Made by a program: the position numbers and the translations under genes. From Candidatus Peribacteria bacterium (lineage in GTDB: Bacteria > Patescibacteriota > Gracilibacteria > UBA1369 > 2-02-FULL-48-14): a stretch of 64,000 nt of DNA. This document shows, piece by piece, positions 6,210-57,895 of the stretch (position 1 is the stretch's first letter; the number at the start of each line of letters is the position of its first letter). The notes under the pieces were generated by a model, which saw only the letters and a list, made by a program, of their open reading frames with translations, was not told the origin of the DNA and searched no databases. The stretch covers positions 62,001 through 126,000 of the forward strand of contig CALQZQ010000001.1 of the NCBI GenBank assembly GCA_943349825.1. The letters are read 5' to 3'.

Positions 6210-8138
<1,929 letters not shown>

Positions 8139-8155
8139 GGTTCAACTGAGCGAAC

Positions 8156-8184
8156 TTGACTTTCAATTAGTTTGGTTTTATAAT
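8156..8184 (+). promoter_or_regulatory. sigma70-like promoter
   Basis: TTGACT (8156-8161), 17-nt spacer, TATAAT (8179-8184). Confidence 0.7.
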
Positions 8185-8216
8185 GAGCTTCTCTTTTTCA
8201 TTTTACTCCAAAATCT

Positions 8217-8900
8217 ATGCGTCTCTCTGAAGGATTACTCCTCGTTGGTCTAACTGCTGGTTGCAAGCCTGGTAGTGTTGAGCTTGAGGCAAGGCTGGGG
8301 TCGCCTTATGAGGCTCCTGATTCTGAGGATACTGATGACACCGCTGGAGATACGGACACCAACGTCGATTCTGGCATGGACAGCGGAACGGATACTGCTA
8401 CAGATACTGCAGAACCTTGTGATACCGCTACGGAAGATCCTACCCGAGAAATTCTGACGACCACGGTGGATCGTTGTGAAGACCTTCTGGATGAAACCTA
8501 TCGCGTGAATGCTGCTGAATTTGTGGTTCGAAACAATGCTGAAGAACCTTCTATGAATTCTTCTTACCAGGTCAGCGATGTATTCAGAGCTTCTTTGAAC
8601 CCTGACTATCCTTCTGCAGAGTACGAATCTTTGATCGCTTGTGCTCGACTCACTCCAGTGGACCGTTCTCACCCTGTTCAAACTTTGGGAGCCACTACTG
8701 TTCAAAATTTGAACACTCGTATGCTCGATGTCGAACTGGAAGGCATGGATGTTGAAACCGGTTCTTTGAACGTCTGGATCGGGACTCAAGATACTGAAGC
8801 TGCTTTCACCGGGTTCACCACTCCTTCTGAGGAAGACGACAGTACGGCGCGTGCCTATACCGTTTTCTGGGATGGGGCTCGCTACACGGTGACTCGCTAA
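8217..8900 (+). CDS. putative lipoprotein with Asp/Thr-rich linker
   Basis: Lipobox-like LTAGC near the N-terminus; DSEDTDDTAGDTDTNVDSGMDSGTDTATDTAE low complexity. Confidence 0.65.
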   Translation: MRLSEGLLLVGLTAGCKPGSVELEARLGSPYEAPDSEDTDDTAGDTDTNVDSGMDSGTDTATDTAEPCDTATEDPTREILTTTVDRCEDLLDETYRVNAAEFVVRNNAEEPSMNSSYQVSDVFRASLNPDYPSAEYESLIACARLTPVDRSHPVQTLGATTVQNLNTRMLDVELEGMDVETGSLNVWIGTQDTEAAFTGFTTPSEEDDSTARAYTVFWDGARYTVTR

Positions 8901-53453: not shown

Positions 53454-54653
53454 TTAAACACGGTCGAGGAGGTGACCGAGTTTGTCCTTTTTGGTTTTGA
53501 GATAGTTTTTGCTTTGCGCGCTCGGGTCAATTTCCAGTGGCACACGTTCGGTTACGAGTAAGCCATGGCCTTCGAGTCCGATGATTTTTTGCGGATTGTT
53601 GGTGAGCAGGCGAATGGTGTTGAGTCCGATGTCCTTGAGCATCTGAGCCCCGATTCCGTATTCACGCAGGTCCGCCTTGAAACCGAGTTTTTGGTTGGCT
53701 TCCACGGTGTCCAGCCCTTCGCGCTGCAATTTATAGGCTTTGAGTTTGTTGATGAGCCCGATGCCGCGGCCTTCTTGGCGCATGTACAAAATCACTCCGC
53801 TGCCTTCTTTGCTGATGAGTTTCATGGCGGCATCCAGTTGGGCGCGACAGTCGCAATGCACGCTGTGGAAGACATCCCCGGTCATGCATTCAGAATGGGC
53901 GCGCACGAGCACATTTTCTTTTCCGGCCACGTCTCCTTTTACGAGCAGCACGTGCTCGAGTTGGTCGATGGCATTGGAATACACAAAAATGCGGAAGGGA
54001 CCGTATTCGGTTTCGAGCGTCGTTTCCACTTCCCGCTGCACCAGTTTTTCTTTGAGGCGACGGTAAGCAATGAGATCTTTGATCGTGATCATCTTGAGCT
54101 CGTGCTTTTTCGCGAATTTCTCCAAGTCGTCACGGCGAGCCATTTCTCCGTCGTCTTTGGCGATTTCACAAATCACACCCACCCCTTTGAGTCCGGCGAG
54201 TTGAGCCAAGTCCACGGCGGCTTCGGTGTGGCCGGCACGCACCAGTACTCCGCCCTTGCGCGCGCGCAGCGGGAAGATGTGTCCGGGGCGTATAAAGTCG
54301 CTGGGCTTGGACTCGGAACTGACCAAAGCTTGAATGGTTTTGGCACGGTCGCTGGCGGAAATGCCGGTGGAGACGTCCCATTTGTAATCCACGGAAATGG
54401 TGAAGTTGCAGCGCTTGGATTCAGAAATGTCTGCAGCCATCGGGGGAAGGTCCAGGCCTTCGGCCAGGGATTCCTCCATAGGTACGCAAATCAGGCCGCG
54501 GCCTTCTTTCATCATGAAGTTCACGGCTTCGTTGCTCACAAATTCGGCCGCCATAATAAGATCGCCTTCGTTCTCACGGTCCTCGTCGTCGAGAACAATG
54601 AGCATTTTTCCGGCCCTAAGGTCGGCGAGCGCGTCTTCTATAGTGGTCCACAT
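53454..54653 (-). CDS. ribBA: bifunctional DHBP synthase/GTP cyclohydrolase II
   Basis: [98 protein letters not shown]. Confidence 0.97.
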
Positions 54654-54724
54654 GCCTGCACTATACAGGTTGAAAGCTGGGGTGGGAAGAGGGCATTGGG
54701 TTGCGAAAATTCTTCGCGTTTTGC

Positions 54725-55090
54725 CTACGCGTAGGCTGAGAAAAACCTTTTAAGTTGTTTTTCTGAAATTACTAAAGCAAATAGTCCGACCATTAGGGGA
54801 ATAATGAAAAGAGGAGACCAGTAGTCCTGTATCGGAGTTTGAGCTGGACCAGTCATAACATATTTGAGGGCTGCGATGTCATCTATAAACAATCCTGCTC
54901 CTATCCCAAATAATATGTACGCGAGTTTCATTTTTCTTAAAAATAACGACATGACAACAAGGAGCAGCCCATAATAAAAGTGATACGATTGGTCCTGAAA
55001 AATGAATTGTAGTTGAGGACTGCTTGCGGCAATTGCCACAAAAATTTTCATCACGATCACAGTGATAATAGCTGTCGTAGTAATTTTCAT
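54725..55090 (-). CDS. hypothetical membrane protein (possible cassette ORF)
   Basis: 121 aa, about four TM segments, AT-rich, downstream of attC-like site 2. Confidence 0.65.
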
Positions 55091-55178
55091 AATTTTTTTT
55101 TGCCTTGTAGGCTTACAGATTACTTCCTTTATCTTGAATTATCTTTGTTTTACCTCTGAATGTCCATAAAAGTACGGC

Positions 55179-55248
55179 ACTTAACGTCCAATTTGGGGGA
55201 GTGAATGGAGCACAGTGCTATGAACGAACCTCATATGCCTTGTTAGGT
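55179..55248 (-). other. attC-like recombination site 2 (70 bp)
   Basis: Minus strand: ACCTAAC(55248-55242)...central hairpin AGCACTGTGCT...GTTAAGT(55185-55179); both ends match RYYYAAC/GTTRRRY. Confidence 0.55.
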
Positions 55249-55290
55249 GAGGTGTGGCCAAATTTTTTATGAATTAAGGATGAAAAGTCG

Positions 55291-55821
55291 CTAGTAGTCG
55301 TTGATTAATACTCCATTAAGGTGGTCTATTTCCTGCTGGAGAACGGCGGCTTTTGAACCAATTATGGTTTCTTCAAAATCATTGCCCTCAATATCTTGGT
55401 ATTGGACTTTGACCCAAAAATATCGCTTTAAAAAGTGACGACCATCTAAACTAAAACATTTTTCCGTCCACGGTAATTGCAATTTTTGCTCAACGATTTT
55501 TGGGTTTACCATTATTTGGTAGTCGCCATATGAACTTTTGAGGGCAATGATTCGTTGGCTATATCCCAGTTGTGGAGCAGCAAGACCGAGCCCAAATATA
55601 TGACCACGAAAATCTGTTTTTTTTATAACTTCTTTAAGCTCTTCTGATATTTGTTTGGTCTGTTCATCAAAAGCAGTAACTTCTTCACTCACTGAAGTGA
55701 GTATTGTATTTGGCTCCTGTAAAATTTCTGCTGGAACAGTGCGAGGCCATGCTGCGTATACAACGTAGATAGCCGCCGTGACTAGAATGATTAAACCGGT
55801 GATTTTCTTGCGACTTTTCAT
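55291..55821 (-). CDS. membrane-anchored peptide deformylase-like protein with QEIDH instead of HEIDH
   Basis: GLGLAAPQLGYSQRI (motif I), WTEKCFSLDG (motif II with Cys), VLQQEIDHLNGVLI (motif III, first His replaced by Gln); N-terminal TM. Confidence 0.85.
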   Translation of the reverse strand: MKSRKKITGLIILVTAAIYVVYAAWPRTVPAEILQEPNTILTSVSEEVTAFDEQTKQISEELKEVIKKTDFRGHIFGLGLAAPQLGYSQRIIALKSSYGDYQIMVNPKIVEQKLQLPWTEKCFSLDGRHFLKRYFWVKVQYQDIEGNDFEETIIGSKAAVLQQEIDHLNGVLINDY

Positions 55822-55845
55822 ACCTATAAAATTTGGCCACCTTTC

Positions 55846-55951
55846 ATATAACGTTCGTGAATAACCGAAGCTTGCTAATGGTAAAATAAGCCGAAGGCGG
55901 ACCATTAGCAACTTTGAGCGAACGAAGTAAGCCGGTTATTCACTGTTAAGT
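55846..55951 (-). other. attC-like recombination site 1 (106 bp)
   Basis: Minus strand ACTTAAC(55951-55945)-A-GTGAATAACCG...TTGCTAATGGT...ACCATTAGCAA...CGGTTATTCAC-GAAC-GTTATAT(55852-55846). Confidence 0.6.
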
Positions 55952-55967
55952 GATTTTTGGCTGGTTT

Positions 55968-56396
55968 TCAGCGAAGCATTTCAGCTAATTCCCCTTCAAA
56001 GGGACCATAAACAGCATCCCTTGGGCCTTCAATTCCTCTCAAATAGAAAGATGCGAAGCTGTCTGTTTTTGATTCGTAGCCTGATTCTGCATAAATCCAG
56101 AAAAACGCATTCTCATATTGTGCCGTTTGATCATTTTCGAAACTCATCGGATCCCCATTTTTATCTGTAATCAATTCATATCCTTCGATAGAGTAGCCTG
56201 CTCTGCTCTCTTCAAAGAGGAACTTATTTTCTCCTGGATACTCTGCTTCAATAGCATCGATATATTCTTCGATGGAATCAAATGTGATTACTTCATTGGA
56301 AGGTTCATTAACTTCTTGAATTACGTCTTCAGTTGGTGTGATAGTGGAGCATCCAGCTAATAGCAGGATGACAATGATCGAGAATGAGTTTTTCAT
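55968..56396 (-). CDS. putative lipoprotein (possible cassette ORF)
   Basis: MKNSFSIIVILLLAGCSTITPTED lipobox; AT-rich. Confidence 0.7.
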   Translation of the reverse strand: MKNSFSIIVILLLAGCSTITPTEDVIQEVNEPSNEVITFDSIEEYIDAIEAEYPGENKFLFEESRAGYSIEGYELITDKNGDPMSFENDQTAQYENAFFWIYAESGYESKTDSFASFYLRGIEGPRDAVYGPFEGELAEMLR

Positions 56397-56454
56397 AATC
56401 TTTTGTTACAGGATGATGGTATTTGTTAGCAGAAAAGAAAACCAGCCTAATTTC

Positions 56455-56461
56455 ACTTAAC
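56455..56461 (-). other. solitary GTTRRRY core-site-like heptamer at the upstream boundary of the putative cassette array
   Basis: Minus-strand GTTAAGT (plus ACTTAAC), identical to the 3' heptamer of attC-like site 2. Confidence 0.3.
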
Positions 56462-56474
56462 TCCACTCTAAACG

Positions 56475-56524
56475 AAAACACTTCGGTATTCCATCACGAT
56501 GTGTGGGAGTATGCGAAGTGTTTT
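56475..56524 (-). terminator. terminator-like hairpin after tsf
   Basis: AAAACACTTCG (56475-56485)/CGAAGTGTTTT (56514-56524). Confidence 0.55.
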
Positions 56525-56549
56525 TAGAATTTTATTCTTCGGGGGATTC

Positions 56550-57311
56550 TTAGGCCTCAAACCTCCAGAAACCGTCAATCTTTTCGCCGCTGAGTAAGTC
56601 TTTGATGAGTTGGTCGGGGTTTTTGACGAAGGCTTGAGTGAGCAAAGCGGATTCCTCGCGGAACTTCTTGGCTTTGCCCTCCATGATCTTTTCGACGATG
56701 GCTTCAGGTTTGCCTTCGGCCTTGAGTTGTTCGGCCCAGATTTCTTTTTCTTTGGCGAGGAGTTCATCGGAAATGTCTTCCGGAGAAAGGTTCTTCGGGT
56801 TCATGGCGGCCACGTGCATGGCGATGTCCTTGATCAGTTCGTTGCTACCTCCAGAGGCTGCGATCACTACTCCAATACGGTTGTTGAGGTGGATGTAGGA
56901 ACCGAGTTTGGCGCCGGTCACGACTTTTTTGTCGTTGAGCACAACTTTTTCGCCCATTGCCATTCCAAGATTGGTGAGATCTTCTTCGAAATTAGCGTCT
57001 TCACCTTCTTTGAGGAGCTTTTCAGCGAGTTCTTGAGCGCGTTTGAGGAAGTCCGGGTTCTTAGCCACGAAATCGGTTTCGCAACCGAGGGAGATCATGG
57101 CGGCCTTGTTGTCTTTTTCAACGATGGCTACCACGCCGTTGGCGGTGGCACGATCGGAACGTTCAGCAGCCTTGGCAGCACCCTTCTTGCGAAGGAGTTC
57201 AATGGCCTTGTCTTCGTCGCCCTCGGCTTCTTCCAAAGCGGTTTTGCAGGCGGTCATAGAAATACCGGTGCGCTCGCGGAGCGCCTTAATCTGATCAATA
57301 GAGACGGACAT
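56550..57311 (-). CDS. tsf: elongation factor Ts
   Basis: IKALRERTGISMTACKTALEEAEGDEDKAIELLRKKGAAKAAERSDRATANG; LGCETDFVAKN. Confidence 0.97.
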   Translation of the reverse strand: MSVSIDQIKALRERTGISMTACKTALEEAEGDEDKAIELLRKKGAAKAAERSDRATANGVVAIVEKDNKAAMISLGCETDFVAKNPDFLKRAQELAEKLLKEGEDANFEEDLTNLGMAMGEKVVLNDKKVVTGAKLGSYIHLNNRIGVVIAASGGSNELIKDIAMHVAAMNPKNLSPEDISDELLAKEKEIWAEQLKAEGKPEAIVEKIMEGKAKKFREESALLTQAFVKNPDQLIKDLLSGEKIDGFWRFEA

Positions 57312-57331
57312 TGTGTTGAAAAATTAATGGA

Positions 57332-57895
57332 TTAAGCAGCAGGAGTTTGAGGGGGAGTCGGTTCGGTCGGAGCGCTCGGGGTTGGTGCAGGGGTAGGCAT
57401 AGGTTCAGGCATGGGAGCTGGAGTGGGTGAGGGCATCGGTGCAGGTTCAGCCATGGGGGCTGGAGTTGGCGTAGCAGCAGGAGTGCTGGCGGCCATAGGA
57501 GCTGCGGCACCTTTGTGGAACCACTTTTCCAGAGGAATCTTTTGTCCGATGTTCGTTACTACAGGGATGGTCCATTGTTTTCCTTTCCAAGCGTTCCAGG
57601 CTGCCCAAAGGGAAGCGAGGCCCACGGCAAGGTTCACGATCATCATGATCATTCCGAGGAGAGCGAGCATTCCCACGGGGAGAACGGTCACCAAGATGTT
57701 CATGATGATGTAAACTCCGAGGTAGATCACGAAGAGGCCGGCGCCGTTTTTAGCGTGCCACATGTGGGAAGGGCTGTCGCTCTTTGCCCAAGCGGTATAA
57801 ATCCAAAGGAAGCTGAAGTAAGCAATAGCTGCTTGCCAGTCACCCGCAGTGGCGGGAGTAGAAGTAGGAGCTGAATTGGTCATTGCGTCTGCCAT
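57332..57895 (-). CDS. DUF4870-like membrane protein with Pro/Ala/Met-rich tail
   Basis: Three TM segments; AAPMAASTPAATPTPAPMAEPAPMPSPTPAPMPEPMPTPAP tail. Confidence 0.65.
   Translation of the reverse strand: MADAMTNSAPTSTPATAGDWQAAIAYFSFLWIYTAWAKSDSPSHMWHAKNGAGLFVIYLGVYIIMNILVTVLPVGMLALLGMIMMIVNLAVGLASLWAAWNAWKGKQWTIPVVTNIGQKIPLEKWFHKGAAAPMAASTPAATPTPAPMAEPAPMPSPTPAPMPEPMPTPAPTPSAPTEPTPPQTPAA

Follow-up and report, generated by a model that had tools for sequence, protein, structure and literature searches.

Between the housekeeping genes tsf and ribBA of a Candidatus Peribacteria bacterium lie three small open reading frames (ORFs), carried on a 64,000-nucleotide stretch of DNA (the window) that lacks an integrase gene. 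How these genes came to be there is the question raised by this locus. The first-pass annotation proposed that they form an array of integron-like gene cassettes, separated by attC-like sites with the ends ACTTAAC...GTTATAT (55951-55846) and ACCTAAC...GTTAAGT (55248-55179) and preceded by a further GTTAAGT heptamer (56461-56455), all on the minus strand. These letters and coordinates are correct, and the three co-oriented ORFs exist as described (Table 1). The region is also AT-rich, as had been remarked, with a GC content of 0.37-0.41 for the insert compared to 0.53-0.56 for both flanks.

Comparison with related genomes, which had been suggested as a check, indicates that no relative in the family shares the locus. 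All five available relatives from the same family lack the three ORFs and hold tsf and ribBA together. The two genes are separated by only ~10-20 bases in four of these genomes (L101, L103, L104, L105), and in the fragmented genome G001 the end of tsf is located directly before ribBA (L106), with the remainder of tsf on another contig. Because tsf adjoins ribBA in relatives, the three window ORFs represent an insertion of ~1.9 kb in this genome. A 90-bp spacer that follows tsf is likewise missing from the relatives. Contamination was rejected as the source of the window locus on the grounds of its tsf and ribBA flanks. Among 14 named genomes, nearly all of them CPR, the full-length EF-Ts is most similar (48%) to that of a Peregrinibacteria metagenome-assembled genome, which would place the host in Patescibacteria (CPR), probably in Peregrinibacteria. 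A near-duplicate block in L107 (92% identity over 615 bp) was also considered and was set aside because its G|TT boundaries are not clean.

Table 1. Features of the tsf-ribBA interval, in window coordinates.
Feature	Position	Strand	Evidence or remark
tsf (EF-Ts), upstream flank	56550..57311	-	Pfam EF_TS, 172 bits; ribBA directly next in relatives
attI-type site	56446..56495	-	core GTTAAGTG at 56461-56454; insertion point G|TT after 56461
Cassette 1, complete	55852..56460	-	from TTAAGTG... up to the G of site A; GTTAAGTG complements R'' CACTTAAC exactly (8/8)
Cassette 1 ORF, small lipoprotein, 142 aa	55968..56396	-	ORF list
Site A, intact attC	55845..55952	-	R'' CACTTAAC, 11-bp L stem GTGAATAACCG/CGGTTATTCAC, R' GTTATATG; fold, covariance models, stem covariation
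Cassette 2	55185..55851	-	core GTTATATG against R'' CACCTAAC, 6/8
Cassette 2 ORF, membrane-anchored peptide-deformylase-like protein, 176 aa	55291..55821	-	Pfam PF01327, 110 bits
Site B, degenerate attC	55178..55249	-	left arm and R' present; distal stem and L' arm deleted
Cassette 3 remnant	54725..55184	-	terminal attC absent (no further covariance-model match)
Cassette 3 ORF, membrane protein, 121 aa	54725-55090	-	ORF list
ribBA, downstream flank	53454..54653	-	Pfam DHBP_synthase and GTP_cyclohydro2

The proteins encoded by the insert are of mixed character. A Pfam profile search matched no family to the lipoprotein of cassette 1, and its proposed homology to an ORF on contig C3 of the same genome was rejected, as the match covers just 25 residues (E 0.006). 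The usual deformylase metal-binding motif is HEIDH. The deformylase-like protein of cassette 2, which carries an N-terminal membrane anchor, has QEIDH at this position and may not be an active deformylase. An Rfam search of positions 54000-57500 returned nothing relevant.

Of the two attC-like sites that had been proposed, only site A proved to be intact. Its predicted fold is far more stable than expected (z -5.4, with none of 200 shuffles as good), whereas no such fold is seen for site B (z +0.5). A first alignment of 21 sites from this genome and its relatives served as the source of a covariance model (R1), which scores site A at 91.9 bits and site B at 21.5 bits. In this alignment, compensatory changes are present at nine of the 11 base pairs of the L stem, and paired cells amount to 97% compared to ~20-39% in slid controls. 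Because site A was part of the R1 seed, an independent model (R2) was made from 94 sites in 20 other genomes, with the family of this genome excluded. R2 recovers site A with 74.6 bits (E 9e-17, a rough E-value), essentially on the minus strand only, and scores site B at 25.8 bits with its pairs broken. The missing fold and weak scores of site B are explained by the deletion of its right (L') arm. Likewise, the expectation that the third ORF had lost its attC was borne out by the covariance searches (Table 1).

The sites collected from other genomes share the architecture of site A. Paired R and L boxes were found in site A, in the attC of contig C12 of the same genome, and in the 94 further sites, among which L-stem covariation again extends to nine of 11 pairs and the bottom strand forms the more stable fold in 89. 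Site A has no bulge in its 11-bp L stem. Within the attC interior, both the side segment (z -1.4) and the distal segment (z -3.9) form more stable folds than shuffled sequences. A three-way junction was considered as well. The minimum-energy fold is branched in 77 of the 94 sites, yet also in 224 of 282 shuffled interiors, and because shuffled sequences branch almost equally often we do not claim such a junction.

Searching the rest of the genome proved informative. At E <= 1, R1 yields four matches in the whole 1.25-Mb genome (site A, site B, and one each on contigs C12 and C3), all in cassette contexts, and a BLAST search of the window region against its own genome identified related copies on the same two contigs. 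By our reading of its sequence, the C3 attC retains ~6 of 11 stem pairs, and the integron sites of this genome are thus partly decayed. Neither R1 nor R2 matches anything in two class 1 integron plasmids or at four loci with canonical IntI.

In an integron, each cassette opens with a core (after G|TT) and closes with an R'' box, both of which stem from one circular attC. Core and R'' box should therefore complement each other, while the two halves of any one site in an array come from different cassettes. Both cassette 1 of the window (core GTTAAGTG, R'' CACTTAAC) and the first C12 cassette obey this rule at 8/8 positions. Among 20 cassettes, an average of 3.6 of the four variable positions match within the same cassette and 1.95 within one site, a difference reached by none of 100,000 shuffles. 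The values for 55 cassettes from independent arrays are 3.47 and 1.82 (0 of 20,000 shuffles). This complementarity is the strongest sequence evidence that the cassettes have probably circulated.

The GTTAAGT heptamer upstream of the array, reported at first as a lone motif, is instead the core of an attI-type site. In 13 other integrons, attI could be located through a GTTR core that complements R'' of the first cassette, and the 13 sites share a consensus of roughly AAAACACTTCGCATANAAACGAG|TTRNNNGAAA. The two elements are complementary at 8/8 positions in 13 of 16 integrons. A matrix trained on the 13 sites, with this genome left out, places the window site at 56461 first among 127,900 positions, with 20.7 bits. 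The runner-up in the window scores 15.0 bits, and the background has a mean of -30.6 and a standard deviation of 9.4. With the same matrix, the genome's own attI on C12 scores 21.3 bits. Given this top rank, the array consists of an attI and cassettes without an integrase. The initial CALIN-like label was thus right regarding integron cassettes and the missing integrase, but an array that opens at an attI-type site is an attI platform without intI and not a plain CALIN. Neither of the two outcomes named in advance as refuting the proposal was observed, as a covariance model does recover site A and the three ORFs are absent from relatives. The attI-like sequence overlaps a terminator-like inverted repeat 3' of tsf.

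An integrase is encoded elsewhere in the same genome. A tyrosine recombinase of 289 aa lies at C12:4940-5809, adjoined by its own attI and two more attC. It is situated amid pyrimidine genes, with ORFs read as pyrD, pyrK, pyrE, and pyrF on one side and pyrC and pyrB beyond the cassettes; this main integron (L008:4940-6826, L009:1-3219) therefore sits within the pyrimidine biosynthesis genes. Contigs C12 and C3 share 149 identical overlapping bases, which gives the order pyrD, intI (divergent), attI, cassette 1, attC, methyltransferase cassette, attC, further ORFs, and pyrC. Past the second attC there are at least five co-oriented ORFs without attC (AHSA1-like, methyltransferase, and others), apparently an eroded array. 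The pyrD gene adjacent to intI shares 89% identity with its counterpart in a genome from the same genus, and a single clade (99/88) unites the integrases of the family. On these two grounds the C12 integron is host DNA and contamination was rejected. A second empty site was sought at the pyr genes, but within the 1.2-1.5 kb covered in genomes G003 and G002 pyrC does not adjoin pyrD, so this locus gives no clean empty-site comparison.

The C12 integrase possesses all of the expected catalytic residues (R135, K160/K163, H224/R227, H250, and Y259), which are invariant in 21 relatives. However, it lacks the additional domain specific to IntI proteins (the I2 helix): the corresponding region numbers 58 residues, compared to 100 in IntI1 and in four further canonical IntI, and a block of 42 residues is absent. 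In the I2-less relatives this region spans 52 to 64 residues, without intermediates. Accordingly, the match to the IntI model TIGR02249 is split and reaches 187 bits, compared to a curated cut-off of 265 bits. The predicted structure of a relative (L029, pLDDT 89.7) is nearest to Vibrio cholerae IntI4 (2a3v). Identity with the Xer housekeeping recombinases was rejected, since Xer genes and all integrases are split at 100/100 in the tree and the C12 integrase stands apart from the XerD-like genes of the same genomes; this genome carries its own XerD-like gene on contig C9. Canonical IntI form one clade (100/100), and the tree does not resolve the order of IntI and the I2-less groups. One patescibacterial integrase (L132; G147:C5:2411-3307) matches the IntI model nearly end to end (235 bits) with the I2 block absent, and it is a possible bridge in integrase evolution.

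The same combination of parts recurs across the phylum. In a sample of 384 phylum genomes of ~0.4-2.0 Mb each, R1 detects attC at E <= 0.001 in 67, and at least 53 have a split TIGR02249 match, which marks an I2-less integrase. None of the 384 passes the IntI cut-off among the matches listed. Also among the matches listed, 43 genomes carry both attC and integrase, 10 only an integrase, 24 only attC, and 307 neither, which corresponds to an odds ratio of 55 (p 5e-30). Within the family, both are present in four genomes and neither in two. The attC of each fetched locus all lie on one strand, and in 16 of 16 fetched loci where the integrase is adjacent to the array it is divergent from it. In many genomes (L020, L022, L023, L028, L030, L034, L035, L040-L043, L049) the contig stops right upstream of the integrase, as might happen where short-read assembly fails at repeated attC arrays. 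Such breaks mean that these prevalence figures are probably too low.

Similar arrangements exist beyond the phylum. The cassette rule also holds beside I2-less integrases in Flavobacterium, Arundinibacter, another Bacteroidota metagenome-assembled genome (MAG), and Saccharibacillus, where integrase and cassettes share a strand, inverted relative to Patescibacteria. Arrays of ~132-bp attC-like sites are located downstream of same-strand I2-less integrases in L060 (Flavobacterium difficile), L091 (Arundinibacter roseus), L082, and L095 (Flavobacterium palustre). The rule is obeyed by five of five cassettes in L060 and nearly perfectly across this group. Some of these genomes derive from isolates, making tests in culture possible. 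In Paenibacillaceae, attC-like sites of ~97 bp were observed in L048 (Saccharibacillus kuerlensis, 7307-8672; cassette rule 2/2) and in L045, L046, L037, and L052 (Paenibacillus). They consist of a TATTCACG/CGTGAATA stem around three small tandem hairpins, an unusual attC shape in Bacillota. A member of the DPANN archaea (Candidatus Nanoarchaeia, L081, 3125-3544) encodes an I2-less integrase with two attC-like sites upstream, both of the patescibacterial type. Among plasmids and phages, only canonical IntI1 or distant integrases were found.

We conclude, with a probability of roughly 0.85, that the insert of 1.9 kb represents an integron platform lacking its own integrase, made up of an attI, a pair of captured cassettes, and what is left of a third, and that it is most likely served in trans by the I2-less integrase of C12. 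This reading draws on the sites, the cassette boundaries, the complementarity expected of circles, the empty site in relatives, the catalytic residues, and the linkage of integrases to arrays, all of which are features of sequence. From these we infer that the integrase is active, that attC would fold as a single strand in the cell, that the enzyme could act in trans on the window array, and that it would recognize attC without I2. In the proposed mechanism, a cassette circle or an array would become single-stranded and the bottom strand of attC would fold into the R/L hairpin. The integrase would then pair this hairpin with a double-stranded attI and exchange one strand at G|TT. Resolution of the junction through replication would leave the cassette at attI in its coding direction. 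The window array may be inert today, given that only one intact attC is left. Also counting against this explanation are the partial decay of the genome's own integron sites and the fact that the C12 integrase lacks a domain that IntI proteins require.

Two other histories would leave much the same insert, and we regard each as rather unlikely. The tsf-ribBA locus could have lost its own intI, so that an attI and decaying cassettes remain and the C12 integron is a separate entity with no activity here. The attI-type sequence is indeed genuine rather than a random GTT, and both site B and the third attC have decayed; yet there is no trace of intI in the 90 bp between tsf and attI or past cassette 3, nor does any relative have anything at this position. 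Cassettes might alternatively have been inserted by the C12 integrase at a chance attI-like sequence derived from the tsf terminator hairpin. An off-target route of this kind to CALINs was proposed by Cury et al. (as reported in PMC8618304), and it would accord with the overlap between the attI-like sequence and the inverted repeat behind tsf and with relatives that have no integron at tsf-ribBA. Its appeal is reduced by the height of the attI match over the rest of the window (20.7 against 15.0 bits) and by the absence from relatives of the 90-bp spacer itself.

The remaining alternatives fare far worse. A canonical integron, made by a standard IntI (with the additional domain) that the assembly failed to capture, is very improbable. 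At 98.8% completeness such a gene could have been missed, but none of the 384 phylum genomes passes the IntI cut-off and the single near-full-length IntI match in the phylum also lacks the domain, both among the matches listed, and the local attC models match nothing in class 1 integrons. Ordinary terminator hairpins between unrelated small genes, with attC-like ends by chance, have a negligible probability. Intergenic hairpins are common and site B does not fold; against this stand the independent covariance match, the covariation seen across 94 sites at nine of the 11 stem pairs, the exact agreement with the cassette rule, and the linkage to integrases.

Beyond the window, the platform and its presumed C12 partner likely belong to a broad integron class that has not been described, whose integrases never had or have lost I2 and recognize folded attC in another way. 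This class would be common in Patescibacteria, would also occur in DPANN archaea, Bacteroidota, Paenibacillaceae, and Spirochaetota, and may preserve a state that predates I2. Surveys recognize IntI through the additional domain (PMC8352920, PMC9668308), and selection on this feature renders an I2-less class invisible to them. This blind spot takes in cultured relatives among Flavobacterium and Paenibacillus. In the literature searched, with most subscription journals and preprints outside its scope, we found no report of Patescibacteria integrons or of I2-less integron integrases. Acquisition of the I2 helix has been described as the innovation that enabled recombination of folded single-stranded DNA (attC), with intermediates lacking (PMC7790495). 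Arrays that bear the marks of cassette recombination beside I2-less integrases make this model directly testable with natural enzymes. How Patescibacteria gain genes is poorly known, and the findings point to a gene-capture system in about one-sixth of their sampled genomes (67/384).

Among known systems, the closest parallel is the sedentary chromosomal integron. The shared features are a divergent tyrosine recombinase, an attI with G|TT, co-oriented single-ORF cassettes mostly of ~0.3-1.8 kb, attC with R''/L''/L'/R' boxes and bottom-strand folding, and the complementary R boxes of circular cassettes. Differences lie in the integrase, which has no additional domain or I2 helix, and in the attC, which has 11 uninterrupted L-stem base pairs, separated from the R boxes by 1 nt and 4 nt and followed by a side segment and then a distal stem-loop. 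The host phylum, moreover, is outside the integron phyla listed in a 2021 review (PMC8618304).

The window array resembles a CALIN in having cassettes without an adjoining integrase. Two traits set it apart, its start at an attI-type site and the presence of a single intact attC. IntegronFinder defines a CALIN as at least two attC within 4 kb in the absence of an integrase, and here the second attC is degenerate. The integrons of archaea (Ghaly 2022, PMC9668308) are similar in their non-classical hosts and reliance on MAGs, but archaeal IntI has been described with the additional domain. In sequence and fold, the integrase class most closely matches V. cholerae IntI4 (PDB 2a3v) and archaeal XerA (4a8e, 5hxy). 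A stretch of 66 residues in IntI4 corresponds to 23 residues in the C12 integrase. XerA, a chromosome recombinase of the dif type, is not known to be associated with cassettes. Judged by its sequences, the system would function like an integron, with an integrase that is not an IntI by the strict IntI criterion.
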